Assembly (NCBI RefSeq): GCF_900187185.1
Contig: NZ_LT906465.1
Location: 62,001-126,000, forward strand
From: Chryseobacterium taklimakanense
GTDB taxonomy: Bacteria; Bacteroidota; Bacteroidia; Flavobacteriales; Weeksellaceae
DNA: 64,000 bases
Direction of reading: 5' to 3'
The notes under the pieces are model-generated. The model had not been told where the DNA came from, ran no database searches, and saw only the letters and a list, made by a program, of their open reading frames with translations. The number at the start of each line of letters is the position of its first letter. Position 1 is the stretch's first letter. The translations under genes and the position numbers were made by a program. Of the stretch, positions 20,996-46,166 are shown piece by piece.

Positions 20996-21277
20996 ATGGA
21001 AGCAATCATTTTATCCAAAGACCAGTTCGAACAGTTAATCGCTAAAATCGACGACATCAACGAAAGACTCCAGAGTACCAACCCGCGCAAAACAGAAACC
21101 TATCTGAACAACAAACAGTTCATGGAAATGATGGATGTTTCTCTGCGCACCGCACAAACCTGGAGAGACGAAGGAAGAATTACCTTTTCACAGGTCGGTA
21201 ACAAAATCTACTACAAACTTTCTGATGTAGAGAAATTCATGCAGGACTACCGAAATTCCGCATTTGCCAAGCGTTAA
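20996..21277 (+). CDS. Helix-turn-helix (excisionase-like) protein
   Basis: The 93-residue protein begins at the ATG at 20996 (MEAIILSKDQFEQL); an upstream in-frame start lacks a good context. After a short coiled segment it has a MerR/Xis-type winged helix: TYLNNKQFMEMMDVSLRTAQTWRDEGRITFSQVGNKIYYKLSDVEKFM. Such proteins act as excisionases or regulators in Bacteroidota elements. The palindrome just upstream is a natural candidate binding site (inference). A strong terminator follows. Confidence 0.8.
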   Translation: MEAIILSKDQFEQLIAKIDDINERLQSTNPRKTETYLNNKQFMEMMDVSLRTAQTWRDEGRITFSQVGNKIYYKLSDVEKFMQDYRNSAFAKR

Positions 21278-23826: not shown

Positions 23827-26724
23827 ATGAACTTTACGCCTTACCACGCTAAATTTTTATCTTACGAATTAACAAGACAACTTCCGGCTAATAGTTTAGG
23901 GAAGTTTACCGCATCCTTACAGGACGCACAGGTAGATTTAAACCCACATCAGGTTGATGCTGCACTGTTTGCTTTTCAGTCGCCATTATCGCAGGGGGCA
24001 ATCTTGGCAGATGAAGTAGGACTCGGAAAAACAATTGAAGCGGGTATTATTTTGTCACAACAATGGGCGGAAAGAAAAAGAAGATTACTCATTATTACAC
24101 CTGCCAATTTGCGTAAGCAATGGAACCAGGAACTTGCGGATAAGTTTTTTTTACCGTCAATAATTTTAGAATCCAAATCTTTTAATTACGAAATCAGGAA
24201 AGGAAATCTTAATCCTTTCAGCCGCCACGATGAAATCGTTATTTGTTCATATCCTTTCGCCAAAACTAAAGCACCATACATTGAACAAACCAAATGGGAC
24301 TTAATTATAATCGATGAAGCACACCGTTTACGGAATGTCTATAAACCTTCCAACAAGATAAGTAACGCAATTAAAGATGCAACCCGTAATTATAAGAAAG
24401 TTTTACTCACCGCTACGCCTTTACAAAATTCTATTCTTGAATTATATGGACTGGTTAGCATAATCGACGACTATGTTTTCGGAGATATTAAAAGTTTTAA
24501 ATCACAATACAGCAGAAACCTTGAAGAAGAAGATTATCTGGAATTAAGGAACAGAATTCAGCCTGTTATTCACAGAACACTTCGCAGACAGGTTTTGGAG
24601 TATATCAACTATACAGACAGAATCGCCATTGTAGAAGAATTTATCCCTACTGACGAAGAAACCGAGTTGTATGTTGGTGTTTCTCTTTACCTGCAGAGAG
24701 ATAAACTGTATGCCTTGCCGAACAGCCAAAGACAGTTAATGACTTTGATTCTGCGAAAATTGCTCGCTTCATCCTCTTATGCTATTTATGGCACTTTAGA
24801 TACATTAGTTAAGAAACTGGAAGCCATTTTAAAAAAACAGGAAGGAACCGACTTGCTTGATGAACTTGATGAAGATTATGAAACCGCAGATGAAGTGGCA
24901 GACGAATGGTTTGAAGAAGATGAATCAGAGGAAGATGAATTGTTTTACTCTGAAGAAGATTTAGAAAATATTAAGGCAGAAATTGAAGACCTCAAGAAGT
25001 TCAGGTCTTTAGCATATACCATAAGGAAAAACTCAAAAGCCGAACATCTTTTTGTGGCTTTGGAAAAAGGTTTTGCAGAACTTGCAAGATTAGGAGCCAA
25101 TAAAAAGGCATTAATCTTTACGGAAAGTCGAAGAACGCAGGAATATTTATATAATACCTTGGAAGCACGCGGATATAAAGATAAAGTGATGCTTTTTAAC
25201 GGGATGAATAACGACCGTAAATCCAAAGAAATTTACAAAAACTGGCTTAAAGAAAATAAAGGAACTGATAAAATTACGGGCTCGGTAACCGCAGATAAAA
25301 GAGCAGCATTGGTAGATTATTTCAAAAATGAAGCAACAATTATGATTGCTACTGAAGCCGCAGCCGAAGGTATTAACCTGCAGTTTTGCTCTTTGATTGT
25401 GAATTATGATCTGCCTTGGAACCCGCAGAGAATTGAACAGAGAATTGGACGCTGCCACAGATATGGCCAGAAGCACGATGTAGTTGTTATCAACTTCCTT
25501 AACAAAAAAAATGCAGCGGATGTAAGGGTTTACGAATTACTTGACGAAAAATTCCAACTGTTTAACGGTGTTTTTGGGGCAAGTGATGAAGTGTTGGGTG
25601 CAATTGGCAACGGTGTTGATTTTGAAAAGAGAATTGCACAGATTTATCAGGACTGCAGATCACCCGAGGAAATACAGTCCGCTTTTGATTCTTTACGGGA
25701 TGAATTGAAACCTGAAATTGATGAACGGATGAAGTCCGTGAAATCAACATTATTGGAAAATTTTGATGATGAAGTGCGCGAAAAATTAAGAACCAATCAG
25801 GACGAAACGCTTCGGTTCCTGTCCCGATTTGAAGACAATCTCTGGAAGGTGACACAGTTTTTCCTCAAAGATTTTGCAAATTTCAATTCAGATTACAGTT
25901 TTAGTTTAAACCGCAATCCGTTTCCTGGAGAAGAAATTCATTCCGGACCGTATATGATTTTGAAAAGTTCCGAGGGCAAAAAGAAGTCTTCAATTGAGGT
26001 TCCGGATGATACAAATATCTATCGTGTTGGGCACAAATTAGCACAGCGGATTCTGGACACCTGCAAACAGAACACAACAGAAGAAAAAGAAATAATTTTC
26101 GATTATACTGCATCACAAAACAAAATTGCATACTTAGAAAAGTTTATTGGGCAAACCGGTGTGATGCAGGTCAGCAGTCTTTCGATTCATTCATTCGATC
26201 AGGAGGATTATCTGTTGGTTGCCTGTTATACCGAGGAGGGCGAAGTGTTGGATTCTGAAATGGCAGCACGCTTATTCTCACTTCAGGGTTCTGAAGGAAA
26301 TTTTGTTGCAATAGATGAGGAATATAAGAAGACGCTTTCTGAAATCATTTTTGCTGAAAAACAAAAAATCATCAGTGAAAATGCAGAACGCAACAGGGAT
26401 TTCTTTGATACAGAAATGGATAAACTGGATCAGTGGGCAGATGATATGAAAATCAGTCTGGAGAAAGAAATTAAAGATCTGGATGCCGAAATCCGACTGA
26501 AAAAATCTGAAGCCAAAAAAATTCTTAACCTAGAAAACAAAGTTGCAGCACAACGCGAAATAAAGGATTTAGAAAAGAAAAGAAATGAAAAAAGACAAGT
26601 CCTGTTTTCAGCCCAAGATGAAATAGACGAGCGTAAGGATAATTTATTGAATGACATTGAATCCCGCTTAAATCAAAAAATTGAAGAAAAAGAATTGTTT
26701 ACCATTAATTGGAAGTTGATATAA
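23827..26724 (+). CDS. SNF2/RapA-like DEAD-box helicase, defence-associated
   Basis: The 965-residue protein has a complete SNF2-type motor. Walker A is ILADEVGLGKTIEAG (residues ~59-73), the DEAH box is IIIDEAHRLRN (~159), motif III is LLTATPLQNS, and the helicase C-terminal domain has EGINLQFCSLIVNYDLPWNP and RIGRCHRYGQKH (~515-555). An acidic insert lies at ~340-390, and the last ~150 residues are coiled coil. SNF2 proteins move along double-stranded DNA. Leading an operon with Mod/Res genes suggests target surveillance or remodelling for the restriction machinery (inference). Its stop overlaps the next start in TAATG. Confidence 0.88.
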   Translation: MNFTPYHAKFLSYELTRQLPANSLGKFTASLQDAQVDLNPHQVDAALFAFQSPLSQGAILADEVGLGKTIEAGIILSQQWAERKRRLLIITPANLRKQWNQELADKFFLPSIILESKSFNYEIRKGNLNPFSRHDEIVICSYPFAKTKAPYIEQTKWDLIIIDEAHRLRNVYKPSNKISNAIKDATRNYKKVLLTATPLQNSILELYGLVSIIDDYVFGDIKSFKSQYSRNLEEEDYLELRNRIQPVIHRTLRRQVLEYINYTDRIAIVEEFIPTDEETELYVGVSLYLQRDKLYALPNSQRQLMTLILRKLLASSSYAIYGTLDTLVKKLEAILKKQEGTDLLDELDEDYETADEVADEWFEEDESEEDELFYSEEDLENIKAEIEDLKKFRSLAYTIRKNSKAEHLFVALEKGFAELARLGANKKALIFTESRRTQEYLYNTLEARGYKDKVMLFNGMNNDRKSKEIYKNWLKENKGTDKITGSVTADKRAALVDYFKNEATIMIATEAAAEGINLQFCSLIVNYDLPWNPQRIEQRIGRCHRYGQKHDVVVINFLNKKNAADVRVYELLDEKFQLFNGVFGASDEVLGAIGNGVDFEKRIAQIYQDCRSPEEIQSAFDSLRDELKPEIDERMKSVKSTLLENFDDEVREKLRTNQDETLRFLSRFEDNLWKVTQFFLKDFANFNSDYSFSLNRNPFPGEEIHSGPYMILKSSEGKKKSSIEVPDDTNIYRVGHKLAQRILDTCKQNTTEEKEIIFDYTASQNKIAYLEKFIGQTGVMQVSSLSIHSFDQEDYLLVACYTEEGEVLDSEMAARLFSLQGSEGNFVAIDEEYKKTLSEIIFAEKQKIISENAERNRDFFDTEMDKLDQWADDMKISLEKEIKDLDAEIRLKKSEAKKILNLENKVAAQREIKDLEKKRNEKRQVLFSAQDEIDERKDNLLNDIESRLNQKIEEKELFTINWKLI

Positions 26725-29383: not shown

Positions 29384-31012
29384 ATGGCCAACAAAAACCT
29401 TCAGAAACTCGAACTCACCTGGATTGGCAAAGGTGAAGAACCAAAACTGGAACCACGCATACTCATAGAAAACCCCGAATATTCCTATGGCGATCCCGAT
29501 ACCGGAAATATGCTCATACACGGCGACAACCTGCTCGCGCTGAAAGCTCTGGAGCAGGACTACGCAGGAAAAATAAAGTGCATCTACATCGATCCGCCGT
29601 ATAACACGGGACAAGCATTTGAATATTATGATGATGGTATAGAGCATTCAATTTGGCTAAACCTTATGTATTTAAGATTAAAGATATTATATAAACTTTT
29701 AAAAAAAGATGGAGTTATTTTTATTAATCTTGATGAAAATGAACAGGCTTATTGCAAATTAATTTGCGATGAAATTTTTGGAAGGGAAAATTATATAGGT
29801 GATCTAATTTGGCAAAAAAGAAAAGGAGGTGGTAATGATTCAAGATTTTTTGCAATTGACCACGATTATGTTTTAGTTTATGCTAAGTTTAAGAGCAAAG
29901 AGATTCATAGTAAATGGAAAGTTTCTCAATCAGAAGAATATTTGAAAAGATATAAAGAAAAGGATGAAAATGGCAGATTTTATTGGGATACTTTAGCGAG
30001 AGATGGGCTACAAAATCCTATACCTATTGAAATTGACTGTCCTGATGGAACAATTCTGAGAATGAATTCTCAAAAATCTAAAGACACTATACTAACAGGA
30101 TTAGAAAATGGAACTGTAAGATTATCGCAAGGAAGAAACGGTTGGTCTTTGCATCATAAGGTTTATATGCCTTCGGGACAGGTTTTAAGATCAATATTGA
30201 CAGATGTTGGCACTAATAAAACAGCAGGAGATGAAATAAAATCAATTTTTGGAAATGCAAAATCTTTTGATTATCCAAAACCAGAAGGTCTAATTAGTAA
30301 AATTCTAGAGTTGACCACAGTTGAAGGTGACATCGTCCTAGATTCCTTCCTCGGTTCTGGCACAACTGCCGCAGTCGCTCACAAAATGGGCAGAAAATAT
30401 ATTGGCGTAGAATTGGGCGAACACGCCAAAACTCATTGTTATCCGCGTCTTAAAGCCGTAGTAGATGGCGAACAGGGCGGCATTTCCAAAGCCGTAAACT
30501 GGCAAGGTGGCGGCGGTTTCAAATTCTACACCCTTGCGCCAAGTCTGCTGCAAAAAGATAAATTTGATAACTGGGTTATTTCTGAAAACTACAATGCCGA
30601 TATGCTCGCTGCAGCAATGGCAAAACAGGAGGGCTTCAAATATCAGCCCGATGATACCAAATTCTGGAAACAGGGCCGCTCTTCCGAGCAGGATTTCATC
30701 TATACCACTACGCAGTTCCTCACCGCAGAATCCCTGGAAAGCATTCACGATGATATGCTGCCCGGAGAATCGTTGCTGATCTGCTGCAAGGCATTTCAGA
30801 AAGAATGTAAAAATCGCTTCCCAAACATTTCTGTAAAAAAAATACCGCAGATGTTGCTGAACCGATGCGAGTTTGGCAAAGACGATTACAGTTTCAATAT
30901 CGTAAATCTTCCCACCGAAGAAACCGCTGAAGAAACCGAAGAGCCTGAAATAACCATTCAGGAACTCAACGACCAATCCAACACCGATACGCAAACCACC
31001 TTATTTGATTAA
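29384..31012 (+). CDS. mod: Type III-like site-specific DNA methyltransferase (Mod)
   Basis: The 542-residue N6-adenine/N4-cytosine methyltransferase has motif IV DPPY at residues 70-73 (YIDPPYNTGQAF) and the SAM-binding motif DSFLGSGTT at ~318-326. This IV-before-I order is the beta class used by type III Mod subunits. The region between the motifs (~80-310) is the target-recognition domain. It is visibly more A/T-rich than the flanking catalytic parts, suggesting exchange of specificity. The C-terminus is acidic (EETAEETEEPE) and probably contacts Res. A divergent leader rich in ACCAACC motifs precedes it, as for res. Confidence 0.9.
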   Translation: MANKNLQKLELTWIGKGEEPKLEPRILIENPEYSYGDPDTGNMLIHGDNLLALKALEQDYAGKIKCIYIDPPYNTGQAFEYYDDGIEHSIWLNLMYLRLKILYKLLKKDGVIFINLDENEQAYCKLICDEIFGRENYIGDLIWQKRKGGGNDSRFFAIDHDYVLVYAKFKSKEIHSKWKVSQSEEYLKRYKEKDENGRFYWDTLARDGLQNPIPIEIDCPDGTILRMNSQKSKDTILTGLENGTVRLSQGRNGWSLHHKVYMPSGQVLRSILTDVGTNKTAGDEIKSIFGNAKSFDYPKPEGLISKILELTTVEGDIVLDSFLGSGTTAAVAHKMGRKYIGVELGEHAKTHCYPRLKAVVDGEQGGISKAVNWQGGGGFKFYTLAPSLLQKDKFDNWVISENYNADMLAAAMAKQEGFKYQPDDTKFWKQGRSSEQDFIYTTTQFLTAESLESIHDDMLPGESLLICCKAFQKECKNRFPNISVKKIPQMLLNRCEFGKDDYSFNIVNLPTEETAEETEEPEITIQELNDQSNTDTQTTLFD

Positions 31013-31137: not shown

Positions 31138-33834
31138 ATGGACAATACAGCCAATTACATCAAACAGCGCCTTTCCCTGCGCAAACCTTTACAGGATTCC
31201 CTGGATGTAGTCGCACAGTTAGCCGATAAACTCACCCTGAAAAAACAACCCGAAAACCCGGAAGAAGCCACCGCTTTCCTAAAGGAGGAACTCGCAAAAG
31301 TGCAGGAGCATTATCCGTTTGTCAAAAACTTTCAGCGCGATTTTCCTTCACTGGCATTTTCCATTGCTACGGGTGTTGGCAAAACAAGATTAATGGGTGC
31401 CTGTATTGCTTATCTCGCTATAAACAAAGGCATTAAGAATTTCTTTGTATTAGCGCCCAACCTTACCATTTACGAAAAACTCATTAAAGATTTCGGTGAT
31501 CCGGGTTATGCAAAATATGTGTTCAATGGCATTTCGGAGTTTGTGCACAACCGTCCGGTCATCATTACCGGCGACAACTACAATCAGCAGGGAAATCTGT
31601 TTGATGAAAACGAAATCCGCATCAATATTTTCAATATCTCAAAATTCAATTCAGATAATAAGGGAACAAAAAAAGGCGGCGTCGCTTTAGCACCGAAAAT
31701 CAAACGGCTTTCAGAATATTTGGGACAATCGTATTGGGATTATCTTACCGGTATTAACGACTTGGTGATTTTAATGGACGAAGCGCACCGCTACCACGCT
31801 GATGCTTCCAAAAATGCCATTAACGAACTGAAACCCGTTCTTGGCTTGGAACTTACCGCCACACCAACAGACGAAAAAGGAAATGTTTTTCAGAATATCG
31901 TTTACGAATACAATCTCGCGCAGGCATTGGCAGATGGCGAGTTTGTGAAAAATCCTGCCATAGCAAAAAGGAAAAACTTTGTAAAAGGCAGTCTTTCCGA
32001 TGCAGATGTGGACCGCATTAAACTGGAAGATGCCGTTTCTGTGCATCGCCAAACCAAAAACGAACTCGACTTATATTCCCGCAACAACGAAGTAAAACAG
32101 GTTAAACCGTTTATTCTTGTAGTTTGTAAAAATATAGAGCACGCCGAAGAAACCTATGATTATATCAATTCATCAGAGTTTTACGAAGGCGAATACATTG
32201 GCAAAGTAATCGCCATACACAGCGTAACACGCAAGGATGAAGAAATTGAAAGTCTTTTTGTATCACTCGAAAATCCTGAAAATCAGGTTGAAATTGTCAT
32301 CCACGTCAATATGTTGAAAGAAGGTTGGGATGTTTCTAATCTCTATACGATCGTTCCTTTAAGGGCGGCAAATGCTAAAATATTAATTGAGCAAACCATT
32401 GGTCGGGGTTTGCGCTTGCCTTATGACGGTAAAAGAACCGGAGTGGAATCTGTGGACAAACTCACCGTTATTGCTCACGATAATTTTGATGCCGTTATTG
32501 AAGAAGCCAACGATCCGAAATCTATCCTGAATAAATTCACTTTCATTGAACTGGATGAAGGACAGTTGCAGCCAAAAACAGAAGTCATTACTTCGGTTTC
32601 TACCGTAGATAAAACCGTTCAGGAAGAACAAAAAAAAGTAGAAGCCATTACCAATCCGGTAGAAAAACAAAAAGCGCAGACGGTGGTAGATGCCAAGAAA
32701 GCCATTCTCACCGTGTTGCCATCATTCAATAAATCTTCCCTCGTAAAGAAAGTGGATGACCTTACAAAAGAAGAAGTAAAAAAAGAAGTCATTCAGAAAA
32801 TTGAAGAAAACCTGAATAAAGGACAGTTAAATATGTTTTCAGAACAGATTGTGGCAGAAGCAAGAGCACAATATGAAAGCATTATTAATTCTTATAAAGA
32901 AAATATCATTGAAATTCCAAGAATGGTATTGGCTCGCGGCGAAGTAGAGGCATACTTTTCAGACTTCGATTTAGTAACCGATGATTTCAATTACCGCGCA
33001 CTTGATCAGCAGATTATCAGAATGAATTTACAGGACAGAAAAGTGGAAGAAATTGGGGTTGAGGACAGCGGTATTAAATCCAATCCGGTAAAACTCATCA
33101 TCAGCGAACTCCTCAATTATCCGGAAATAGATTATGATTCAAATGCTGACCTGCTTTATAAATTGGCACAGCAGGCAGTGGACGCTTTGGAAAACAACCT
33201 GGATGACAAAAGCAAACTGAGTCTTACCGTAAGGCAGTTCAAACCGGCCATTGCTGAAAAAATATACCATCAGATGCGCGCCAATTTTACGGTTACCACG
33301 CCCGAGTTTGTAGAGCCGGATGTATTGCCGTTCACCAAGATTGAACCGCATAACTATACTGCCCTTACAGAATCGGGCTACAGAGATTACAGAGATACCA
33401 TTTCGCCGGTTTCATTAGTTCCGAGATATGTTTACCGCGGTTTTGAAAAAGCCTGTCATTTTGAATATAAATTTGATTCGGGCACAGAAAAAGACTTTGC
33501 CTTCATTCTGGAAAGTGATTCCAAAGTTGTTAAATGGCTTCGACCTGCACCAAGTCAGTTCAGAATCTATTGGAGCAATACGGGCAAACGCTATGAACCG
33601 GATTTCATTGTAGAAACCGATGATGCAATCTATATGGTAGAACCAAAAGAATCAGGCAAAATGACCGATCCTGATGTTTTGGCGAAAAAAGAGGCCGCCT
33701 TGGAATTTTGTAAATACGCCTCAAAATACAACGCCGAAAATGGTGGCAAACCTTGGAAATACGCACTGATTCCGCACAATGCAATTACAACCACCACCGG
33801 TTTTGAATATTTAATGGCGCAGTATGCGGATTAA
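31138..33834 (+). CDS. res: Type III-like restriction subunit Res (helicase-nuclease)
   Basis: The 898-residue protein pairs with Mod. Walker A is IATGVGKTRLMG (residues ~76-87), the DEAH-type motif is LMDEAHRYHAD (~208), and GLELTATPTDEKG is motif III. The second helicase domain has EGWDVSNLYTIVPLRAA and QTIGRGLRLPYDG. A PD-(D/E)xK nuclease lies near the C-terminus: YEPDFIVETDDAIYMVEPKES (~820-840), with PD and E-x-K correctly spaced. It would cut DNA after ATP-driven communication between sites. The start ATG follows a CCA-rich leader like the one before mod. Confidence 0.9.
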   Translation: MDNTANYIKQRLSLRKPLQDSLDVVAQLADKLTLKKQPENPEEATAFLKEELAKVQEHYPFVKNFQRDFPSLAFSIATGVGKTRLMGACIAYLAINKGIKNFFVLAPNLTIYEKLIKDFGDPGYAKYVFNGISEFVHNRPVIITGDNYNQQGNLFDENEIRINIFNISKFNSDNKGTKKGGVALAPKIKRLSEYLGQSYWDYLTGINDLVILMDEAHRYHADASKNAINELKPVLGLELTATPTDEKGNVFQNIVYEYNLAQALADGEFVKNPAIAKRKNFVKGSLSDADVDRIKLEDAVSVHRQTKNELDLYSRNNEVKQVKPFILVVCKNIEHAEETYDYINSSEFYEGEYIGKVIAIHSVTRKDEEIESLFVSLENPENQVEIVIHVNMLKEGWDVSNLYTIVPLRAANAKILIEQTIGRGLRLPYDGKRTGVESVDKLTVIAHDNFDAVIEEANDPKSILNKFTFIELDEGQLQPKTEVITSVSTVDKTVQEEQKKVEAITNPVEKQKAQTVVDAKKAILTVLPSFNKSSLVKKVDDLTKEEVKKEVIQKIEENLNKGQLNMFSEQIVAEARAQYESIINSYKENIIEIPRMVLARGEVEAYFSDFDLVTDDFNYRALDQQIIRMNLQDRKVEEIGVEDSGIKSNPVKLIISELLNYPEIDYDSNADLLYKLAQQAVDALENNLDDKSKLSLTVRQFKPAIAEKIYHQMRANFTVTTPEFVEPDVLPFTKIEPHNYTALTESGYRDYRDTISPVSLVPRYVYRGFEKACHFEYKFDSGTEKDFAFILESDSKVVKWLRPAPSQFRIYWSNTGKRYEPDFIVETDDAIYMVEPKESGKMTDPDVLAKKEAALEFCKYASKYNAENGGKPWKYALIPHNAITTTTGFEYLMAQYAD

Positions 33835-33857: not shown

Positions 33858-36545
33858 ATGAAAGAATCTATTTTCGATATTGCAAAGGCAATTGACAGGC
33901 ACCGCCAGTTAGAATTCGCCTCAGAAACCCTCAATAATGCCGTGGGAAGATGCAAGGTGCTTTATGATGGTACTGAGCAGCAGTTTTGGCTAATCAACAG
34001 TGAAGGCAATGTGAAAACCAGTAAAGATTGGTTTGGAAATCCTATAGCGAACACCGCTTTTGTTGATGCAAAACCGTACTCTAAAGATGGCTTTACCGTC
34101 CCGAAACATTCGTATCTGGCTAGTATCCTAATACAGAACAATGAAGGATCCCACGCTTACCGGTCTCCAAATGGTGAAAAAATTATTGAAATTTTCAATC
34201 GTGCTACTTATGATCCTAGTCCTAGTGCGGTAGCTGAAAATATAAAGATCAATATTGCGTCTGATTCAAGAAAATATGCCTATCAGCTGATTTCGGAAAT
34301 TCTTGAGCTGAAAAAATCTTTAGAAAAAGATGAAAAAGCGATAGAGGAGGCAAAAAATAAGGAAAATCAGGAAGCGGTAGATAAATTAATTTTAGAACTG
34401 GACTTAAAAAGAAAACAATTTGATGAAAAATTGGCTTCAGCCAAGAACTTTATTCGTACTCATGCCGAATTAAGATACCAACCAATTCTGGATCCCGTGC
34501 AGGACAAAGTGAAAAGTTCCAAAATTTTTAATGGTAATCTCATCATAAACGGCGGTCCCGGTACAGGAAAAACAACTTCCCTTATTCAGCGGATAAAATT
34601 CTTAACGTCGCAGACTATAGAGGAGTTTACAAATATTAGCTCTGCACAAAGACAGGTGCTTTTTGATCAGAAAAAAAGCTGGATTTTCTTTACACCAAAT
34701 GAGCTTCTTAAGCTTTTTCTTAACAACAGTATGGTTAAGGAGGAGTTGCTTGCAAATGATGATACTGTAAGGGTTTGGCAGGATTATAAACCATACCTGT
34801 TTTTAGAATTTAAATTGTCAGATTCCGTAAAGAAAAAGCCTTTTTTATTTTATAAAAGGGACCAAGATATCACGATGCTGCCAGAGGACGCAGCAAAACT
34901 TCAGGAGTTAATATCAAAATTTGAAAAATACTTCATAAGTCTGCAGAAACAAAAACTTGATAAGATTAAAAATCTTGATATTTCTCTGTTTTCTTGGAAA
35001 GATGTTGGCAACACTATAAAAAGAGATTCTGTCGGCAATGCAGATATAGATATACCAGGGTTTATGCTGTTATTTCTTAACCTGCAGGAAAAGTATCAGG
35101 ATTTATCAAAATCTGTTGCAGATGATTTCAATAAGATGATACAGAGAGCAGCTGCAATAGTACTGACTGAGGTGAAGAAAGATACTGCTCGTTATCAGGA
35201 ATTGGTAAAAATGATTGCTAGTGAAAATCTTACTGAAACCGATAATGAACAGGACGAAGACGAGGATATTGATAGAGAAAATTTTGAGGAAACCGTTGAA
35301 GAAAATCCTGCAGATACCGATTTGAAGTTAATTGCCGTCATTAAATCTTTGGTGCGAAAGAATGCACTTAAGAAATTTGACAATATCACTAAGTTAACTG
35401 GAAGAGATAAAAAATATCTCGAAAAAATACCGGAATCCCAGGAAGTGGTAAATGGAGACAAAATTGGTGAGATTGCATTTTTCAGAAAATATTTTGAGAG
35501 GCTAACCAAAGGGATAATGGTAAATATCTATCAGGAAATTCCTTCCGCCTACAAAAAATTTAGAAGATCGGAAATCGCATCACAATCTGTTTTGTGGAAT
35601 TTTTCGCTGCTCGAAAAACTTGTTAAAGAAAACAATATCAGGCTCCATGTTGATGAACAGGCATTTATAATCATGTTCATTAATAAATTGAATAATTTGT
35701 TGGCAAAAAACCATAGATTATTATACAACAATACTAATCATCCTTTTGTTGAAACTTTTCGTCAATATTGTAAGGCGGTGATAGGTATAGATGAGGCAAC
35801 CGATTTTCGCCTGATAGATTTACTTTGTATGTCGTCATTCAACAATCCTGATTTTAATTCTGTCACGCTCTCTGGTGATATGATGCAAAAATTGACAAAA
35901 GATGGTCTGAAATCATGGGACGACTACAGAAAATTTTTTAAGGACACAGAAATTTATGACCTTGAAATTTCCTATCGCCAAAGTCAAACTTTACTTGCGT
36001 TGGCACAGATAATTTATAAAGGGGTAAATAAGCAGGAAGCAGTATATAAATCATTCATTTCACCGTCAGATATGGAACCTGTACCGCTTTTGTTGATTTC
36101 AGATGATGAGGACGAAAAATTGCAGTGGATTGTAAATCGTATTTTAGAAATACGCGCAGCCTATAGTTTCATACCATCTATTGCGATTTTTGTCCCTTTA
36201 GAACAAGATGTGGAGCGATGCGCTAAAAAACTGGGAGATTTTGATGAGCTTTCTGATGTTGGTATTAATGTGAAAGCCTGTAAAGATGGTGAGGTATTAG
36301 GAAATAAAGATACTGTGAGGGTTTTTTCCATTGATAAAATCAAGGGGTTGGAGTTCGAAGCCGCATTTTTTCACAATGTGGATAATATTTTAAGATCCGA
36401 TGTTTCGGATGAAATGTTTCTCAAATTTATGTATGTTGGCCTCTCAAGAGCTTCATTTTATTTAGCGATGACACTTAATGATAACCTACCTGAGAAAGTA
36501 TCAGCAATTCAGGACTATTTTAAAACTGAGCAAAATTGGAAATAA
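33858..36545 (+). CDS. UvrD-like superfamily 1 helicase
   Basis: This 895-residue protein has all the main SF1 helicase motifs spread over a long chain. Walker A is INGGPGTGKTTSLIQRI (~residues 229-245), Walker B is AVIGIDEATDF (~640), motif III is LSGDMMQKLTKDGL, motif IV is ISYRQSQTLL, motif V is FSIDKIKGLEFEAAF, and motif VI is MYVGLSRASFYLAMTL. A coiled-coil region (~150-200) precedes the motor and an acidic linker lies at ~455-480. No nuclease domain is obvious. It begins 23 bp after res and overlaps the next gene by 10 bp, so it is part of the same operon. Confidence 0.85.
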   Translation: MKESIFDIAKAIDRHRQLEFASETLNNAVGRCKVLYDGTEQQFWLINSEGNVKTSKDWFGNPIANTAFVDAKPYSKDGFTVPKHSYLASILIQNNEGSHAYRSPNGEKIIEIFNRATYDPSPSAVAENIKINIASDSRKYAYQLISEILELKKSLEKDEKAIEEAKNKENQEAVDKLILELDLKRKQFDEKLASAKNFIRTHAELRYQPILDPVQDKVKSSKIFNGNLIINGGPGTGKTTSLIQRIKFLTSQTIEEFTNISSAQRQVLFDQKKSWIFFTPNELLKLFLNNSMVKEELLANDDTVRVWQDYKPYLFLEFKLSDSVKKKPFLFYKRDQDITMLPEDAAKLQELISKFEKYFISLQKQKLDKIKNLDISLFSWKDVGNTIKRDSVGNADIDIPGFMLLFLNLQEKYQDLSKSVADDFNKMIQRAAAIVLTEVKKDTARYQELVKMIASENLTETDNEQDEDEDIDRENFEETVEENPADTDLKLIAVIKSLVRKNALKKFDNITKLTGRDKKYLEKIPESQEVVNGDKIGEIAFFRKYFERLTKGIMVNIYQEIPSAYKKFRRSEIASQSVLWNFSLLEKLVKENNIRLHVDEQAFIIMFINKLNNLLAKNHRLLYNNTNHPFVETFRQYCKAVIGIDEATDFRLIDLLCMSSFNNPDFNSVTLSGDMMQKLTKDGLKSWDDYRKFFKDTEIYDLEISYRQSQTLLALAQIIYKGVNKQEAVYKSFISPSDMEPVPLLLISDDEDEKLQWIVNRILEIRAAYSFIPSIAIFVPLEQDVERCAKKLGDFDELSDVGINVKACKDGEVLGNKDTVRVFSIDKIKGLEFEAAFFHNVDNILRSDVSDEMFLKFMYVGLSRASFYLAMTLNDNLPEKVSAIQDYFKTEQNWK

Positions 36546-37804
36546 CACAACCGAACATATCGGATAAATATCAGGTTTACTCCCCAACCTCAGTAATAGG
36601 CATTTTCAACAATGCCCTGAAACTTCCTGCCACGGTAAATTTAATTTACCTGAAAGGCAGATATTCCTACGGCGGTGGCAAGGCGTATGTAAACTACTAT
36701 TACGACTTTTTATTTTCCGAAAGTGACAATGTATCTATCGGTGTGAAAATGCCTGGCTTGCTCCGTTCTCAGATTGTAAATAATGAAATTTACACCTTGC
36801 GCGGATATATAGAAAAAAGATTACGCAACTCAAGCATTGACCTTGTTTTTGTCGTAGACGAAATCATTGCCCAGGAGGAAAAAACCATCTCTGAAGACGA
36901 TCTGAAAAGATATGACCTCATTCAGAAAAAGTTAGAAAAAGATTCTGTGGACCTCCAAACCTTAATCCGCGAAAAAATACTTTCCGGTCAAAAGATCAGG
37001 ATTGCCAATATTTATGGCCATAATGCTATTGTGCAGAGAGATTTTTCAGAAGGCTTGGATGTATCTTCTACTGAATTTGAAATCACAGATTTCACCTGCA
37101 ACATTACTTCCACAACCTCCATCATTAGCCAATTGAACAATGTTTCCTCAGGTGATTTTGATATTATTGCTTTAGTCCGTGGTGGTGGCGACCGCCAAAG
37201 TTTCGAAGTGTTCAACGATTTGGCACTGGCAGAAAAATTTATTGATTTGCCCGCACTCACGGTTACCGCTCTGGGACACACGGTAGATGAAACCCTGTTA
37301 GACAAACTTTCAGACCGCCGTTTTCACTTACCACACGATTACGGAGCAAGTCTGCATGTCATAGTAAATAAACTCGTAGAAGAAAAATCAAACTCCCGTG
37401 CTCTTCTCATCGAAGAAGTCAAAAAAGATGTCACCAAACAATTTGAAGAACAGGTAAAAACACTGTCAGAACAGCTTGGGAATAAAAACAAAGAATTCGA
37501 AAAACTCCAGGAAGATTCGGCAAAACAAATTTCAAAACAGACTGAAACTGTTCATAAACAAATGAAAATGCAGGCTGAAGAAATGGAAAAATATAAATCA
37601 GAAATAGCGTCCTTGCATGAAAAAAATATTAAAGAAGCAGTCAGATCTGAAACCGCCTCTTTATCAGCAAAATTAGATATAATTTCTCTTGAAAACTCTT
37701 CTTTGAAAGAAGATATTCGCTCAAGAAAAAAAACAAATATCTGGCTTTATCTGATTTTGATAATTTTGGGTCTGGTTGTGGGGATTTTATTAAGTAAATT
37801 ATAA
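36536..37804 (+). CDS. Membrane-anchored exonuclease VII large-subunit-like protein
   Basis: The product is 422 residues. It has an OB-fold-like N-terminus (TVNLIYLKGRYSYGGGKAYV, ~35-54) and an XseA-like catalytic core with LVRGGGDRQSFEVFND (~209-224) and TALGHTVDETLLDKLSDR (~240-257), matching the RGGGS...FND and GHExDxT motifs of exonuclease VII except E to T. A long coiled coil follows (~300-385), ending in one transmembrane helix (NIWLYLILIILGLVVGIL). The start must be TTG 36536: an in-frame TGA lies at 36527-36529 and no ATG follows until far inside the OB fold. It overlaps the helicase gene by 10 bp. Housekeeping XseA is soluble and needs XseB; no xseB is nearby. Confidence 0.8.
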   Translation: MEITQPNISDKYQVYSPTSVIGIFNNALKLPATVNLIYLKGRYSYGGGKAYVNYYYDFLFSESDNVSIGVKMPGLLRSQIVNNEIYTLRGYIEKRLRNSSIDLVFVVDEIIAQEEKTISEDDLKRYDLIQKKLEKDSVDLQTLIREKILSGQKIRIANIYGHNAIVQRDFSEGLDVSSTEFEITDFTCNITSTTSIISQLNNVSSGDFDIIALVRGGGDRQSFEVFNDLALAEKFIDLPALTVTALGHTVDETLLDKLSDRRFHLPHDYGASLHVIVNKLVEEKSNSRALLIEEVKKDVTKQFEEQVKTLSEQLGNKNKEFEKLQEDSAKQISKQTETVHKQMKMQAEEMEKYKSEIASLHEKNIKEAVRSETASLSAKLDIISLENSSLKEDIRSRKKTNIWLYLILIILGLVVGILLSKL

Positions 37805-37808
37805 AGGA

Positions 37809-40007
37809 ATGGCAATTTTTTATCCTGAAATAGAAAAAATTTTGCAAGGCAAAGTAAAACCTGAGCCGGGTGAACTTCATTTGCTTTATTTTCTTCGTGA
37901 TAATTTGGATGATTCGTATGATGTCTTCTTTAATCCTTATATGAACGGAGACAGACCGGATGTTGTTGTGATGAAAAAAGGTCAGGGTATGTTAATAATC
38001 GAAGTTAAGGATTATGTTCTAAAACATTATGATATTGACCACAAAACTAAGAACTGGAAAGTAAAAAGTTCAACAGGGAACGCAGTAATCAAATCACCTA
38101 TTACTCAGGTTCTAAAGTATAAGAATAACTTATTTGATCTGCATATAGAGAATCTGTTAGAACAAAAGATATCCGATATTAGAAATGCAAACATGATTTC
38201 TTGTGCTTTATATTTTCACAATGCCACACAGTCCGATCTTGAAGATTTTATTGTAAATCAATTTTCTTCGGATAAAAATTATAGTAAATTCCTTACTTTC
38301 AATATTTTGCTATTCGGCAGAGATGGGCTGACAAAAGATAATTTTAATAGTGCATTGCGTCGCCGTCATTTAGGAAAAGGTCAAATGACTTCTTACTTTC
38401 CAGATGAACTTTATGAGAGAATTAAAAGATTCCTAAATCCACCATTACATCAGAAGACTGATGGAATTGTCCCAATGTATAATCAGGAACAGCAAAGGTT
38501 GATTTATGACCAGGATAGAAAAGAAATTAGGGTAAAAGGGGTTGTAGGTTCAGGAAAAACCACAGTTTTGGCAGGACGCGCTGTAGAATTACATAAAAGA
38601 ACAAATGGAGATGTGCTTATCCTTTCCTTCAACGTTACGCTAAAGAATTATTTGAAAGACAAAATTAGTGAGGTTCGTGAGGAATTTCCGTGGGGAGCGT
38701 TTACAATTTTGAATTATCATGTTTTCATTAATGATGTATTGAATGGCGTAGGTGTGGATGTAGCAGTTCCTGAAAATTTTGACTCTTATTCAGCAGAACA
38801 AATTGAGAATTATTTTGAGCAGAATTACTACTCAAATATCGCATTATTTGAGCAATATAAAGACCAATTTAGAAAGTTCGACGCAATCTTAATTGATGAA
38901 ATTCAGGACTATAAATCAACGTGGATGAATATTATTAAAGATTATTTTTTATCTGCAAACGGCTACTATATGGTTTTTGGTGACGAGAAGCAAAATATCT
39001 ATGGCAATGAAGTGGTGAACAAGAGTATGTCGGTCAACATTATTGGTCGTCCCTCAGAACTGAAAACATCTTATCGGTCAAGAACAAAAATTAAAGAGTT
39101 GGCTTTAAATTTTCAGCGCGAATTCCTTGCAGAAAAATATGAAACAGATGAACACGTATCTTTTAAAGCGAGCAACAGTGATGGTGGCTTATTTTCAGAA
39201 AAAGATGATCTGTCAGGAACATTAAGTTACATGTTTTTGCCGTCGGCAAACAGTATTCCGAGTTTATATACAATTATTCATGAAAACAGTATTAACAAAG
39301 GTATTCATCCAAATGATATTACGGTTTTAGGAACTCAAATAAGGCTTTTAAAAGATTTCGATGCTCACTATCGTTACCGTTCAGGCGAAAAAACGAATAC
39401 AATGTTTGAAACATCCGAAATGCTTTTAACATCCGGAATGAATTCTGAGCAAGTACCGATAAAAACAATGCGAACACACTGTATTCGCAAGGGGCTTGAA
39501 TTGATAAAACTATATAATGAATACAATCTCACTCGTGGTTTTCGGGAATTGGCTTCGCTGCTGATTTGTAAAAATCTTGCAGATGAATCTCCTGAATTTT
39601 TTAATGCGAGATATCAGCACCTGTGCAGAAATAGTAAAATTACTTCAGAAATTTTTGACAACTACTATGCTCAAAATCAAACAGCATTATCTTCCTTCAT
39701 TGCAAAGTATGTAAAGAATGCAGCACCCTCTCTCATGAAGTTAATTCGTGATAATAAAAAAATTCATTTTTGGATGAACAGTGGTACAATCAAGATTTCA
39801 ACAATTCACAGTTTTAAAGGTTGGGAAGCGGATCTTGTCTACCTGATTATTGAAAATGTTCCTGAACACATGGAAAGTACTTTTAATGAATTGATATATA
39901 CAGGAATAACAAGAGCAAAACAGAACCTGATCATCCTTAATTATGGTAATGAAAGCTTTCATAATAAAATAACACCCTTAATAGATCAAGTCAACAACTC
40001 AAATTAA
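37809..40007 (+). CDS. NERD nuclease-UvrD-like helicase fusion
   Basis: The 732-residue protein joins an N-terminal NERD (nuclease-related) domain to an SF1 helicase. The nuclease residues are D51 (GDRPDVVVM) and E65-x-K67 (MLIIEVKDY), a PD-(D/E)xK arrangement. Walker A is VKGVVGSGKTTVLAG (~243-257), Walker B is ILIDEIQDYKSTW (~360), then VFGDEKQNIYG, and the late motifs ISTIHSFKGWEADLVYLI and LIYTGITRAKQNLII. It follows the XseA-like gene by 4 bp. DNA end processing or nicking with unwinding of invading DNA is a reasonable inference. Confidence 0.87.
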   Translation: MAIFYPEIEKILQGKVKPEPGELHLLYFLRDNLDDSYDVFFNPYMNGDRPDVVVMKKGQGMLIIEVKDYVLKHYDIDHKTKNWKVKSSTGNAVIKSPITQVLKYKNNLFDLHIENLLEQKISDIRNANMISCALYFHNATQSDLEDFIVNQFSSDKNYSKFLTFNILLFGRDGLTKDNFNSALRRRHLGKGQMTSYFPDELYERIKRFLNPPLHQKTDGIVPMYNQEQQRLIYDQDRKEIRVKGVVGSGKTTVLAGRAVELHKRTNGDVLILSFNVTLKNYLKDKISEVREEFPWGAFTILNYHVFINDVLNGVGVDVAVPENFDSYSAEQIENYFEQNYYSNIALFEQYKDQFRKFDAILIDEIQDYKSTWMNIIKDYFLSANGYYMVFGDEKQNIYGNEVVNKSMSVNIIGRPSELKTSYRSRTKIKELALNFQREFLAEKYETDEHVSFKASNSDGGLFSEKDDLSGTLSYMFLPSANSIPSLYTIIHENSINKGIHPNDITVLGTQIRLLKDFDAHYRYRSGEKTNTMFETSEMLLTSGMNSEQVPIKTMRTHCIRKGLELIKLYNEYNLTRGFRELASLLICKNLADESPEFFNARYQHLCRNSKITSEIFDNYYAQNQTALSSFIAKYVKNAAPSLMKLIRDNKKIHFWMNSGTIKISTIHSFKGWEADLVYLIIENVPEHMESTFNELIYTGITRAKQNLIILNYGNESFHNKITPLIDQVNNSN

Positions 40008-40022: not shown

Positions 40023-41741
40023 ATGAAAATATCTCTCAAAAATTTCCGCATATTCAAAGAAACAACAAACTTTAACATTCGCCCGATTACAGTTCTTACA
40101 GGACCAAATAACGCAGGAAAAAGTGCATTGGCAAAATTATTCATGCTGTTGAAAAATAATGTTAACAATTTGGATTTTTCAAAAGGCGATCATAGGATTA
40201 ACTCGTTTGAAAATGCCGTTAATTACGATTCTAACGACAAATATTTTGTGGTTGGCACGGAATTTAAAATTCCCTTTTTTGTAAATACAGAGTTGCGCAT
40301 TGGTTATGCTGATAACAAAATATTTCAATATAAAATCTTGTATCAAGATCGTCCATTATTGTTAGTTGATAATCAAGTGTATGATAAAAAAATTTACTAT
40401 CAAAACATCGTCGATATTTTTCTCAAAGGAATATCTCTAATACCAATAGGTTTGTCAGATAAAACTAATGTGACTTATACTCCTTTAAATCAATTTCCAT
40501 TTGATTTCTCAAAATATCCTGAAATAACTTTTGATAATTATAAAGAAATTGAAAATGTAACTTATCCCGAGCTTATTAAAAAAACAGTTTTAAACATTGA
40601 TTTTGAAAACAAAAAAACTTCATATCGAGAGGTGAAATCTCAGGAAAACCTTTTGTCAGCCAATGCTTTATGTAATGAGATTGAAAGATTGATTTTGGAA
40701 GAAACCCCATACGCTTTATTTGATGTTTATCTTGATATGGAAAAATTTACCGCCAAATATTACGATAAGATTCTTAGTTTACAAGGTGAAGAAATTAATG
40801 TTAACGATCCCTTCAAAACAGAAAAAGAAAATCTCTTGTCCGCACTTGAAAACATTCGTTGGAAAATTGAAAAGTATTTCAAAGAAGAGTTTCCAGAAAT
40901 GAATATAGAGATAATTCCATCTCGTTCCTACAAACTAATATTTTCGGAGAAATACATAAATTGGATGCAGGACTTTGAAGAAAATGGCAACACATTTTGT
41001 AATGAATTACTTGCTGTGCTCAGAAAATTTGATAACAAATTAAAACAAGTAGAATTTATTACAATAGATCGCGGTCTTCAATTTAAATCAATTGATAATC
41101 CAAATTATCAGATCTTAATTGATTATAGTAATCTAGACAAGAAGACTCCTAAAATTTTCGAGACTAAGCCGCAATTCAAAAGTGGTACTTTCATTGAAAA
41201 AGCTATGAAAATTTTAGGCTTTCCTTCAGAAGTTATCATTCAGCAGGTGCAGTTACTAAATGGAATAGGTATAGCTGATTTACTAATAAAAAATAAAGAA
41301 AAGCAGCAGAGTTTATTAGAATTGGGCTACGGTTTTTCCATGTTGTTGCCTATTTTAATGCGAATTGAGTTGGGCGGTTCACCAATTTTCATCGAGGAAC
41401 CTGAAGCAAATCTCCACCCAAATTATCAGTCACTGCTCGCAGATATTTTTGTACTCGCTACTGAAATGTTCCCGGATCAAGAAATTGTTTTGGAAACGCA
41501 TAGCGAATACCTAATCCGTAAACTTCAGTTACTTACTGCGCAAGGAAAAATATCTACGGACAAATCCATGATTTACTACTTTAATGATGATAAAAGTGTT
41601 GCTCCGGAAAATCCAAAGGTTATTGAGATTGAAATCAACCATAATGGTAGTCTTACTGAAGATTTCGGACCCGGCTTTTATGATGAAGCGGTAAGGCTAC
41701 AGTTCAATTTATCAAATATTAACCGTGAACAGATGAATTGA
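40023..41741 (+). CDS. AAA family ATPase, OLD/DUF3696-like
   Basis: The 572-residue SMC/ABC-type ATPase has Walker A GPNNAGKSA at residues 27-35, a long insert, an ABC-signature-like segment SLLELGYGFSMLLPIL (~435), Walker B PIFIEEPEANLHP (~455-467) and the D-loop/H-loop ETHSEYLIRKLQ. No TOPRIM nuclease domain is visible at the C-terminus, which fits the DUF3696 group rather than OLD nucleases. It starts 15 bp after the NERD-helicase gene and its stop touches the following gene, so the ATPase and the next protein probably form a pair. Confidence 0.85.
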   Translation: MKISLKNFRIFKETTNFNIRPITVLTGPNNAGKSALAKLFMLLKNNVNNLDFSKGDHRINSFENAVNYDSNDKYFVVGTEFKIPFFVNTELRIGYADNKIFQYKILYQDRPLLLVDNQVYDKKIYYQNIVDIFLKGISLIPIGLSDKTNVTYTPLNQFPFDFSKYPEITFDNYKEIENVTYPELIKKTVLNIDFENKKTSYREVKSQENLLSANALCNEIERLILEETPYALFDVYLDMEKFTAKYYDKILSLQGEEINVNDPFKTEKENLLSALENIRWKIEKYFKEEFPEMNIEIIPSRSYKLIFSEKYINWMQDFEENGNTFCNELLAVLRKFDNKLKQVEFITIDRGLQFKSIDNPNYQILIDYSNLDKKTPKIFETKPQFKSGTFIEKAMKILGFPSEVIIQQVQLLNGIGIADLLIKNKEKQQSLLELGYGFSMLLPILMRIELGGSPIFIEEPEANLHPNYQSLLADIFVLATEMFPDQEIVLETHSEYLIRKLQLLTAQGKISTDKSMIYYFNDDKSVAPENPKVIEIEINHNGSLTEDFGPGFYDEAVRLQFNLSNINREQMN

Positions 41742-43317: not shown

Positions 43318-44250
43318 TTGAACAAAAAACAGTTAATAATAGAATCATTCAGAACACTTAACGCAGATATGCTGGAGGTGCTGCTGAATGATGGCCAAAA
43401 TTACAGCGATGTTTCAAAAGAATTGTTTATTGAAAGATATAAAGAGTTTTTTGAAAATATAAAAGAATATCCTGAAACCGAACTGGGCTTCAAAGTTTAC
43501 CCCGGTGAATGCACTAACTGTTACAAAGGCAGAAAAGGTGTTTCATTTGTCAATCCTGATGGCGAGTGCTGCCTGAGTTTGATTTTTGAAGAAAATGAAG
43601 ATGATTACAGTGATATTTGCTCCTGCTCCTCATTCAAAACGGAAGGCATAGAAGTAGTGAATACCTGGATTGCACCGTATTTTTATACCGATGAAAAATA
43701 TGATTGGAAACCCACATACAAGAACTATCAGGAAATGTCTGAATGCGATAAAGGAGTTAAAGAAATTAAAGAGGAAATAGCAAATGAAGGTATTCTGTCT
43801 GCATCTTTTTACCAGCTTTGGCTACGCAAATATGAAAAATTTGACACCATTGAAAATATTTTTACAGATAAATATTACAAATATTATGAAGAAGTAAGAA
43901 AGTTTGTTTCAGCCGTAAAATACGTACGTGATTTTTTTGAAAAGGAAAAAGTTGCAAAAGAATTATTTCTGAACTTTTCTGCATTTAATGTTGTAACCGC
44001 TGATAAAATAATTCCGTGGCTACATGAATGCAAAGAAATCTTTCCCTACGGCTTCTATGAATTTGATTATGAATGCAATTTTTTACAGGGCTATTTTGTA
44101 AACAGAAATTTGAAATTCAAACTAAGTGAACTGTATTACACCCATTCAGTGCATCATCTGATGAATAACTATTGGGATTTAATTTTGCCTGAAGAAGACT
44201 CAACAAATGAAGATTTTGAATATGAAGATGATGAAACATTGCCCTTCTAA
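43318..44250 (+). CDS. Hypothetical cysteine-containing protein
   Basis: The 310-residue product starts at a TTG (43318), with AAATAAGG about 10 bp upstream as a possible ribosome site; no in-frame ATG gives the full N-terminus. It has a cysteine cluster (PGECTNCYKGRKGVSF, then GECCLSLIF and DICSCSSF, residues ~61-105) that may bind metal. The remainder is Tyr/Phe/Glu-rich and the tail acidic. I do not recognise the family. It lies between the Zn-ribbon gene and the DUF262 pair and may belong to the same island. Confidence 0.6.
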   Translation: MNKKQLIIESFRTLNADMLEVLLNDGQNYSDVSKELFIERYKEFFENIKEYPETELGFKVYPGECTNCYKGRKGVSFVNPDGECCLSLIFEENEDDYSDICSCSSFKTEGIEVVNTWIAPYFYTDEKYDWKPTYKNYQEMSECDKGVKEIKEEIANEGILSASFYQLWLRKYEKFDTIENIFTDKYYKYYEEVRKFVSAVKYVRDFFEKEKVAKELFLNFSAFNVVTADKIIPWLHECKEIFPYGFYEFDYECNFLQGYFVNRNLKFKLSELYYTHSVHHLMNNYWDLILPEEDSTNEDFEYEDDETLPF

Positions 44251-44351: not shown

Positions 44352-46166
44352 ATGAACAACGAAATAGAACTATTAAGTATCAACGATCTTTTAGACCGTC
44401 ACTTTTACATACCGTATTATCAGCGTGGTTACCGTTGGACAGAGCACCACGTTACTGATCTCTTGGAAGACATTTATGCATTCAGCAAATCATCAAATAT
44501 TAATGATAAAGATTTTTACTGCTTGCAGCCAGTTGTTGTGAAGCCAAAAACTTGGACTGAAAATCAGGAAAGTATTGTTGGCTACGAAGTAATTGATGGT
44601 CAGCAACGACTTACAACAATTTATATCATTTTACACTATTTGATGAAAGATTTTCTCAAAGTGGATTCGCTTAAAGAAGACTACGCTAAAGAAATTTATT
44701 CACTTCGTTATGAAACACGCCCTAAAAGTCAGGAATTCCTGAAAGATATTAAAGATGATAAATCAAATATCGATTTTTTCCATATTGCTGAAGCATATAA
44801 AACTGTTCAAAATTGGTTCAGAGATGAAAACAGACAGTTAAACCGCTCGGATAAAGATGATTTTCTAAAGACACTCTTGGGGAGAAAAGAAGATAAAAAG
44901 TCAGTACAGGTCATTTGGTATAGTGTAGAAGAGAGCGTTGATAGCGTCGATTTATTCAACCGACTGAATATGGGAAAAATTCCATTAACAAATGCAGAAT
45001 TGATAAAAGCGATATTTCTTTCATCTTCAAGTTTCAAAGAAGACCTTCCGGACGAAGCAAACAGAAAGAAAATTGTCATTTCTCAGTTTTGGGATATCAT
45101 CGAGCAACAACTGAATGATGAAAATTTTTGGTCATTTGTTACCAATTCTAAAATGGAAAAATATGCAACAAAAATTGAATTGCTTTTTGACATTATTTCT
45201 AAAAAGAGAACAAACGAAATTGATCCTCTTTATACCTTCATTTATTTTGTAAATGAGTCGAAAAAAGAAAACAGCAGTCTTTGGGACTTGTGGTTATCAG
45301 TAGAAAGGTATTATTACACTTTGTTCGAGTGGTACAAGAGTAAAAATTTATACCATAAAACAGGGTTTTTAATAACCAATGGATATGATTTGAAGACTTT
45401 AATTGACCTTTCTGTAAACTCACCGAAATCAACATTTGAGGAAGAAATCAACAGAAGAATTTCTGCAAGTATAGATAGCGATTTTGAAAAACTCTCATAC
45501 AGTACAGCAGGAGATTATAAAAAGATTGAGAAAGTGTTGATGCTTTTTAATATAGAGTCAATTCGGACTAATGAAAAAATAACAGAATTTTATCCATTTA
45601 GGTTTCACAAAAATCAACATTGGAGTTTAGAACACATCCACGCGCAAAATTCTGAATCTTTAGACCGAAATAAGAAAGAGCAGTGGCAAAAATGGCTAAG
45701 TTATCACACAAAATTGATGGAAGACGTTATTACAGAAACTTCAGATGCAGCAGAACAAATAGAAATGCAAAAGTTACTTGATGAAGTGAAACTCTTTAAC
45801 GACGATAAACTGACTTATGAAGTATTTGAAGGACTAGCAAAGAAGATTATAGAAAAGTTTTCTGAAAAGAATGAACAGCAGATTAATGATCCCCACAATA
45901 TTGCTAATCTTGCACTGTTAGGCCATAATGAAAATGCCGCACTCAACAATTCTGTTTTTGAAGTAAAAAGAAGAGCAATTATCTCAATGGATAAAGAAGG
46001 TGCATATATTCCAGTATGTACTAAAAGAGTTTTTCTAAAATATTATAATGACACAAATTCTTCACAACAATACTATTTTTGGGGGCACAGCGATCGTGAA
46101 TCTTATGTTGAAGAAATAAAAAAAGTTCTTGCTCCTTACATAAAAAATCAATCTGTTTTAAACTAA
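44352..46166 (+). CDS. DUF262/DUF1524 (GmrSD-type) protein
   Basis: The 604-residue protein has the DUF262 N-terminal domain of GmrS/BrxU-type modification-dependent restriction enzymes: YIPYYQRGYRWTEHHV (~17-32) and the ParB-like nucleotide-binding motif VIDGQQRLTT (~80-90). The C-terminal DUF1524-like region has WSLEHIHAQNSE (~424-435) followed by PHNIANLALLGHNENAALNNSVF and a KRR, the degenerate HNH pattern of GmrD. It probably restricts modified phage DNA. The next gene, 6 bp downstream, encodes a second DUF262 protein, so the pair likely works together. Confidence 0.85.
   Translation: MNNEIELLSINDLLDRHFYIPYYQRGYRWTEHHVTDLLEDIYAFSKSSNINDKDFYCLQPVVVKPKTWTENQESIVGYEVIDGQQRLTTIYIILHYLMKDFLKVDSLKEDYAKEIYSLRYETRPKSQEFLKDIKDDKSNIDFFHIAEAYKTVQNWFRDENRQLNRSDKDDFLKTLLGRKEDKKSVQVIWYSVEESVDSVDLFNRLNMGKIPLTNAELIKAIFLSSSSFKEDLPDEANRKKIVISQFWDIIEQQLNDENFWSFVTNSKMEKYATKIELLFDIISKKRTNEIDPLYTFIYFVNESKKENSSLWDLWLSVERYYYTLFEWYKSKNLYHKTGFLITNGYDLKTLIDLSVNSPKSTFEEEINRRISASIDSDFEKLSYSTAGDYKKIEKVLMLFNIESIRTNEKITEFYPFRFHKNQHWSLEHIHAQNSESLDRNKKEQWQKWLSYHTKLMEDVITETSDAAEQIEMQKLLDEVKLFNDDKLTYEVFEGLAKKIIEKFSEKNEQQINDPHNIANLALLGHNENAALNNSVFEVKRRAIISMDKEGAYIPVCTKRVFLKYYNDTNSSQQYYFWGHSDRESYVEEIKKVLAPYIKNQSVLN

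Follow-up and report, generated by a model that had tools for sequence, protein, structure and literature searches.

What does an exonuclease VII large subunit with a predicted membrane anchor do in the middle of a bacterial defence island? The question is raised by a stretch of 64,000 nucleotides of the Chryseobacterium taklimakanense genome (contig NZ_LT906465.1, positions 62,001–126,000; the whole stretch is referred to here as the window). The usual picture of exonuclease VII is of a soluble enzyme of housekeeping repair, assembled from XseA and many XseB subunits. The window gene, named here xse, occupies positions 36536–37804 of the forward strand, opens with a TTG codon and encodes a 422-residue XseA-like protein, Xse. 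The answer that we favour, with somewhat better than even confidence, is that Xse is a self-sufficient, membrane-tethered exonuclease VII, belonging to an anchored clade that lacks XseB and is carried as mobile accessory cargo.

Xse clears the threshold of the Pfam family Exonuc_VII_L (PF02601; E-value 2.7e-19, 70.3 bits for a cut-off of 35.9) and stays far under that of the NCBIfam xseA equivalog (TIGR00237; 72.2 bits for a cut-off of 180). Its AlphaFold model, computed with 25 relatives as input (mean predicted local distance difference test score of 81.9, below 50 for residues 393–401; predicted template modelling score of 0.47), displays in order a β-rich N-terminal domain, an α/β core, a helix spanning residues 266–396, a break and a last helix at residues 403–421. 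The top fold match in the PDB is E. coli ExoVII (8txr_A; Foldseek E-value 2.2e-14), which also ranks best by VIA-align (Z 17.5, root mean square deviation of 12.1, 347 aligned residues), and the next-ranked VIA-align matches cover the OB fold alone (Z ≤11.6). This comparison, set beforehand as the test of an XseA fold, came out in its favour. All on the forward strand, the OB-fold-like domain is encoded at 36569–36874 (residues ~12–113; AlphaFold strands at 34–113, VIA OB-fold matches over residues 2–115), the catalytic core at 36893–37330 (residues ~120–265, delimited by Pfam, profile alignment, AlphaFold and VIA), the long single helix, a predicted coiled-coil rod, at 37331–37723 and the C-terminal hydrophobic, predicted transmembrane helix at 37742–37798. 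The anatomy of an XseA homologue with OB fold, core, rod and C-terminal anchor is well supported. The earlier note had described XseA motifs joined to a rod and a terminal helix; RGGG, FND and GHTVDET are indeed present in the translation, and both helices are called from the AlphaFold model and from hydropathy.

The active site of XseA, which we take to be the set of four residues D155, R205, H238 and D241, is kept in Xse at D169 (37040–37042), R215 (37178–37180), H248 (37277–37279) and D251 (37286–37288). A family profile of Xse relatives matches 8txr_A at 1.6e-11 and aligns the family-invariant R, H and D with E. coli R205, position 238 and D241; position 238 is an alanine in this structure, titled ExoVII(H238A). 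In the anchored family delimited below, the D169 position is D in all 63 rows having a letter there, the H248 position is H in 66 of 66 and the D251 position is D in 60 of 66 (N in 3, E in 3), with the proviso that RGGG was demanded by the open reading frame (ORF) filter and GH[TK] by one scan pattern, so that such motif counts are partly by construction. PMC11077951 names D155 as catalytic, and D169, invariant in all sets, would correspond to it. GHT in place of GHE had been taken by the earlier note for a change in the catalytic motif. This claim is rejected: the E is found in just 21 of 30 canonical XseA rows, and because it is not invariant even there its replacement entails no catalytic loss. 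From the residues that are kept, Xse is likely to be an active exonuclease of single-stranded DNA (ssDNA) at the membrane.

Relatives were collected by a scan of public genomes, in which the best 80 of 105 gave 78 loci: 53 from Bacteroidota (L059–L111) and 25 weaker loci, almost all of them from haloarchaea. Loci from plasmids, phage records and further genomes were added, and three sets were compared, namely the anchored family (66 rows, Xse among them; 64 are distinct, L056/L090 and L057/L098 being the same contigs), haloarchaeal XseA (23 rows) and canonical XseA (30 rows). Rows L054, L055, L094, L097, L112 and L119 were dropped for want of a suitable ORF, and L058 was left out because its xse is broken. 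A C-terminal hydrophobic helix, a feature not used to find the loci, is seen by hydropathy in 63 of 66 anchored-family, 23 of 23 haloarchaeal and 0 of 30 canonical rows; the helix-less members of the anchored family (L033, L099 and L100) are short ORFs. The 12 positions before the helix hold 162 K or R residues, compared with 24 after it, and this concentration of basic residues suggests that the enzyme head lies in the cytoplasm. An XseB-like ORF within 700 bp accompanies 0 of 66 anchored-family rows, 22 of 23 haloarchaeal and 21 of 30 canonical ones; the XseB profile seeds include the XseB of L045–L047, so that five canonical rows (L045–L047, L147 and L148) and some haloarchaeal counts are partly by construction. 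Nine of the 30 canonical rows show no linked XseB with this profile.

A tree of 72 core sequences separates 33 anchored rows, Xse among them, from 39 canonical and haloarchaeal rows by a branch supported at 100/99. The rows nearest to Xse are from Chryseobacterium; L034, L035 and L150 form long branches of unsure placement, and the tree program cautions that the joining of L035 could be spurious. Nine haloarchaeal rows group together (99/90) among the canonical ones, and for this reason the membrane anchor would have two separate origins, or a single one followed by loss. Xse shares with canonical XseA (PF02601, TIGR00237, 8txr) the OB fold, the core, the positions of R205, 238 and D241 and the long helix that follows, but differs in its C-terminal helix, its low equivalog score, its separate clade and the lack of a detected XseB. 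Public annotation names the anchored genes plainly 'exodeoxyribonuclease VII large subunit', a label that hides this difference, and no membrane-anchored or XseB-less XseA family was met in the limited collection of literature searched.

The haloarchaeal plasmid proteins (L113–L136, L150–L152) have in common with Xse the XseA core, the C-terminal helix and a mobile setting. They differ in keeping XseB, in falling on the same side of the tree as canonical XseA and in heading a conserved co-directional cluster that resembles a type IV secretion system. Downstream of the anchored XseA come XseB and membrane proteins, which include a relative of TrbL/VirB6 in 17 of 22 loci. Owing to their position in the tree they are treated as an analogy and not as the same family. 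The cluster was seen in L113–L136, at 19861–21098 of plasmid L151 and at 9850–22817 of L152. L151 holds its first part, with no annotated VirB4 in the stretch read, and L152 also shows an annotated VirB4 and a primase, so that an archaeal cluster of this type includes an exonuclease VII bound to the membrane.

In the anchored family the rod varies in length by regular steps. The distance from GHT[VA]D to the C terminus in 45 rows is 176–178 residues (10 rows), 205–207 (16 rows), 234–235 (15 rows) or 350 (1 row), so that 42 of 45 fall within two residues above 29n+2; the off-step values are 172 (two rows of the same contig) and 125 (a truncated row). Such steps are seen in L059–L099 and in the window rod. 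On a 37-row tree, which leaves out eight truncated or redundant rows and has 17 of its 36 inner branches unresolved, at least seven changes are required to account for the length classes. The longest member, L081, contains a 174-bp (58-residue) tandem repeat within the rod, and unequal exchange between repeats explains the 29-residue steps. Since the register is kept through these changes, the periodicity itself is suggested to matter. Two observations bear on whether the rod replaces XseB: the haloarchaeal proteins are anchored and retain XseB, and the XseB-less relative L034 (305 residues) has almost no rod.

In the reading that we favour, the N-terminal OB fold would bind ssDNA and the XseA-type core would cut it, while the long rod, probably a homo-oligomeric coiled coil, would stand in for the XseA/XseB stalk and the C-terminal helix would tether the enzyme to the inner membrane on its cytoplasmic side. 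Plasmids, conjugative elements and islands carry genes of the anchored clade as accessory cargo. In C. taklimakanense (genome G000) xse would be one cistron of a defence island, co-transcribed with its neighbours, and the UvrD-like and NERD-UvrD helicases encoded on either side could feed it single strands. Given its place in this mobile clade, Xse probably trims ssDNA at the membrane, foreign strands possibly among it, rather than serving in routine repair.

Several contexts fit carriage by mobile elements. Anchored copies also lie on plasmids, conjugative-element genes occur near Xse (DUF3945/DUF4099 in 12 of 65 loci, a topoisomerase in 8 of 65), and integrases stand beside the island of the window copy. 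Phage collections yielded little direct evidence: GenBank phage records gave two matches, one over most of the length in an unverified faecal scaffold (L044) and one short; a scan of viral contigs with the window protein alone gave no relative. Taken as a whole, the family points to mobile-element cargo, whose uses may differ by host. Genes for PDDEXK_4 nucleases adjoin anchored xseA at 4749–6005 of L044, the human-gut scaffold, and at 12692–13945 of L033, a Bacteroides ovatus plasmid, and may represent a second partner family. As for expression, an element TAnnTTTG, which we take to be the Bacteroidota promoter element, precedes xse in 25 of 31 loci, where about 2 are expected from simple shuffles. 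It is absent from the 136 bases before the window start codon, and for lack of an own promoter-like element there the window xse is probably read from upstream.

An opposing view is that Xse is simply a housekeeping XseA whose sequence drifted in a lineage without XseB. It draws on the genome itself (2.76 Mb, one contig, 99.97% complete), in which xse is the sole PF02601 match found and XseB (PF02609) was not found. The earlier note's statement that XseB is absent is borne out by this search and by the lack of an XseB-like ORF near xse, and the normal xseA/xseB pair that it had suggested looking for elsewhere in the genome was not found. It had also proposed that being the only XseA of the genome would refute its reading. 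Formally this is the situation, but the objection loses weight because the bacterial family mostly lacks canonical exonuclease VII: among 80 of its genomes PF02601 matches occur in 12 and PF02609 in 3 (G449, G457 and G466), where a strong XseA of about 200 bits or more adjoins XseB. In G438 and G441 the PF02601 matches are weak only, under the cut-off. Anchored copies are present in 7 of the 80 (G000, G331, G095, G210, G452, G427 and G398), none of which has XseB; among 11 further genomes with anchored copies XseB occurs in one, beside a canonical XseA. Such patchy presence, together with the strongly supported separate clade and the consistency of the anchor among relatives, leads us to reject a housekeeping role as very improbable and sustains the claim that the gene is accessory. 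Several copies per species and copies on plasmids add to this, and no common chromosomal position of xse across the family was seen in the neighbourhood comparison.

A dedicated anti-phage effector is a different matter. Xse would then act in a two- or three-gene system with the NERD-UvrD helicase (37809–40007, forward strand; Pfam NERD and UvrD) and the uncharacterised protein g310 (43318–44250, forward strand), destroying phage DNA at the membrane or killing the infected cell. The spacing is tight, the UvrD-like ORF upstream sharing 10 nucleotides with the start of xse and the NERD-UvrD ORF starting 4 nucleotides past its stop, and the surroundings include type III restriction–modification, SNF2, AAA and GmrSD genes. 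L058, from the same bacterial family, has Xse, NERD-UvrD (62% identity by tblastn) and g310 (40%) in a row, likewise beside a methylase gene. Toxicity would also fit, since over-expressed XseA without enough XseB is toxic in E. coli according to PMC11077951, which cites earlier work. Yet Xse and NERD-UvrD are both broken in L058, the three genes occur together only there and in the window among the loci compared, and neither NERD-UvrD nor g310 was found in any other compared Xse locus. NERD-UvrD is rare in itself (2 of 395 genomes of a phylum sample at 1e-60), and Xse was seen at 0 of 4 other NERD-UvrD loci, three searched by annotation within 6 kb and one by tblastn. NERD-UvrD as an obligate partner of Xse is therefore not supported, and we consider a dedicated anti-phage system rather unlikely. 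The earlier note's idea that the anchor serves defence where phage DNA enters holds in part: by its place in the island phage defence is possible for the window copy, whereas no recurrent defence partner was found.

Tolerance of DNA damage, with a membrane-bound ExoVII acting alongside error-prone repair, is suggested by 15 of the 53 Bacteroidota loci, in which genes for ImuB, a DnaE-type polymerase, an S24 peptidase and an AlkB-like protein are found close to Xse. These ImuB–DnaE and S24–AlkB(–DJ-1) cassettes are from Chryseobacterium-type genomes (L065, L066, L069, L070, L073, L075, L077, L079, L082, L085–L089 and L095). An S24 peptidase and a Y-family polymerase are encoded within ~8 kb on the Bacteroides plasmid L033, and polymerase, ImuB-like and ligase D-like genes adjoin Xse in L040. 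The 15 loci are, however, close relatives that may reflect one inherited arrangement; xse often lies at least 0.3 kb from the repair genes and mostly has a promoter-like element to itself; inspection of the upstream regions by eye showed neither an SOS operator nor another shared operator; and the window copy has no repair neighbours. We hold this account to be unlikely. A role in conjugation, with trimming or surveillance of ssDNA at the mating channel that helps the enzyme's own element or excludes others, would suit the haloarchaeal runs that start with anchored XseA and XseB, the conjugative-element genes near 12 Bacteroidota loci and a copy on an Allomeiothermus plasmid with two conjugative DNA transfer genes at least 5 kb upstream. 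The haloarchaeal case is one of analogy only, and no transfer genes occur among the window-island proteins scanned, which are part of the window ORFs; we are equally doubtful of this proposal. The self-sufficient tethered exonuclease carried as cargo has its own difficulties: the repair-gene neighbourhood of the 15 loci would suit a repair enzyme no less than a defence one, genes of the UvrD-like and NERD-UvrD kinds are also found where Xse is missing, N or E replaces D251 in members outside the main clade, and the short members L034 and L149 have little or no rod, which is consequently not essential in all members.

The enzyme itself is known; the novelty lies in the anchored XseB-less clade, in the second anchoring within haloarchaeal transfer clusters and in the 29-residue steps. 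Such a mobile clade of XseA unlinked to XseB would show recruitment into conflicts over mobile DNA. The clade is also a natural experiment on the purpose of XseB, and xse gives access, through one gene, to the cellular site at which phage or plasmid ssDNA is attacked. Tentatively, anchoring may have arisen at least twice on bacterial and archaeal mobile elements and define a class of membrane-bound ssDNA gatekeepers, the Bacteroidota rod being a ruler that sets the distance between cutting head and membrane in steps of 29 residues (~4 nm); we give this joint proposal less than even credence. If true, the gatekeepers would meet single strands as they cross the membrane, in conjugation, DNA uptake, phage entry or processing.

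The island around xse is co-directional, on the forward strand. It encodes a DrmD-related SNF2-family helicase (23827–26724), a Schlafen/AlbA protein, a protein of unknown function, a type III DNA methyltransferase Mod (29384–31012; PF01555 9e-48, PADLOC MTase_III 6e-171), its restriction subunit Res (31138–33834; PF04851 1.6e-22, PADLOC REase_III 9.2e-166), the UvrD-like ATPase called by Pfam (33858–36545) and Xse, followed by NERD-UvrD, an AAA_15 ATPase (40023–41741; PF13175 4.7e-20), three unknowns including g310, and two GmrSD/DUF262 proteins (44352–46166 and 46173–48371; PF03235). The SNF2 protein matches PADLOC DrmD at 2.8e-210 and scores 699 bits with the NCBIfam equivalog DISARM_DrmD_b, under its cut-off of 950; no Drm model besides DrmD was the best match in the 10 island proteins scanned, DrmA and DrmB not having been searched by name. 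NERD-UvrD matches the PADLOC candidate defence protein C3a187 (NERD+UvrD) at 2.2e-59; the four other NERD-UvrD loci examined differ in showing no Xse. Beside the island lie two tyrosine integrases (16949–18109, reverse strand; 18454–19671, forward strand) and a VapE/primase-like protein (21372–23519, forward strand). The window yielded no tRNA and, as far as the flanking stretches were compared, the island has no long direct repeat on its flanks (14 bases at most for an exact match), so that its ends are undefined. In L058 the conserved row is preceded by an N6-methylase-like gene with a HATPase-like end and, at 6599–7810, by a gene for a 403-residue protein of unknown function and without Pfam or PADLOC match, next to the broken xse.

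The UvrD-like gene was considered as a fixed partner of Xse and rejected: among 346 genomes of the order it was found only in the C. taklimakanense genome, and its plasmid relatives (10 records) were, in the three examined, either with SNF2, methylase and DUF262 genes or alone, with no Xse annotated. On the Raoultella plasmid p3045-3 (L141) an SNF2 gene, DUF4391, the UvrD relative, a type III-like methyltransferase, a DEAD helicase and two DUF262 genes stand next to one another. This cluster resembles the remainder of the window island in its gene types, but has DUF4391, another gene order and no annotated Xse. Given these like genes, the UvrD-like gene probably belongs with the restriction–modification and SNF2 module and not with Xse. 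The SNF2 helicase, type III Mod and Res, UvrD-like ATPase and GmrSD pair (23827–48371) may together form a multi-gene defence system linked to restriction–modification.

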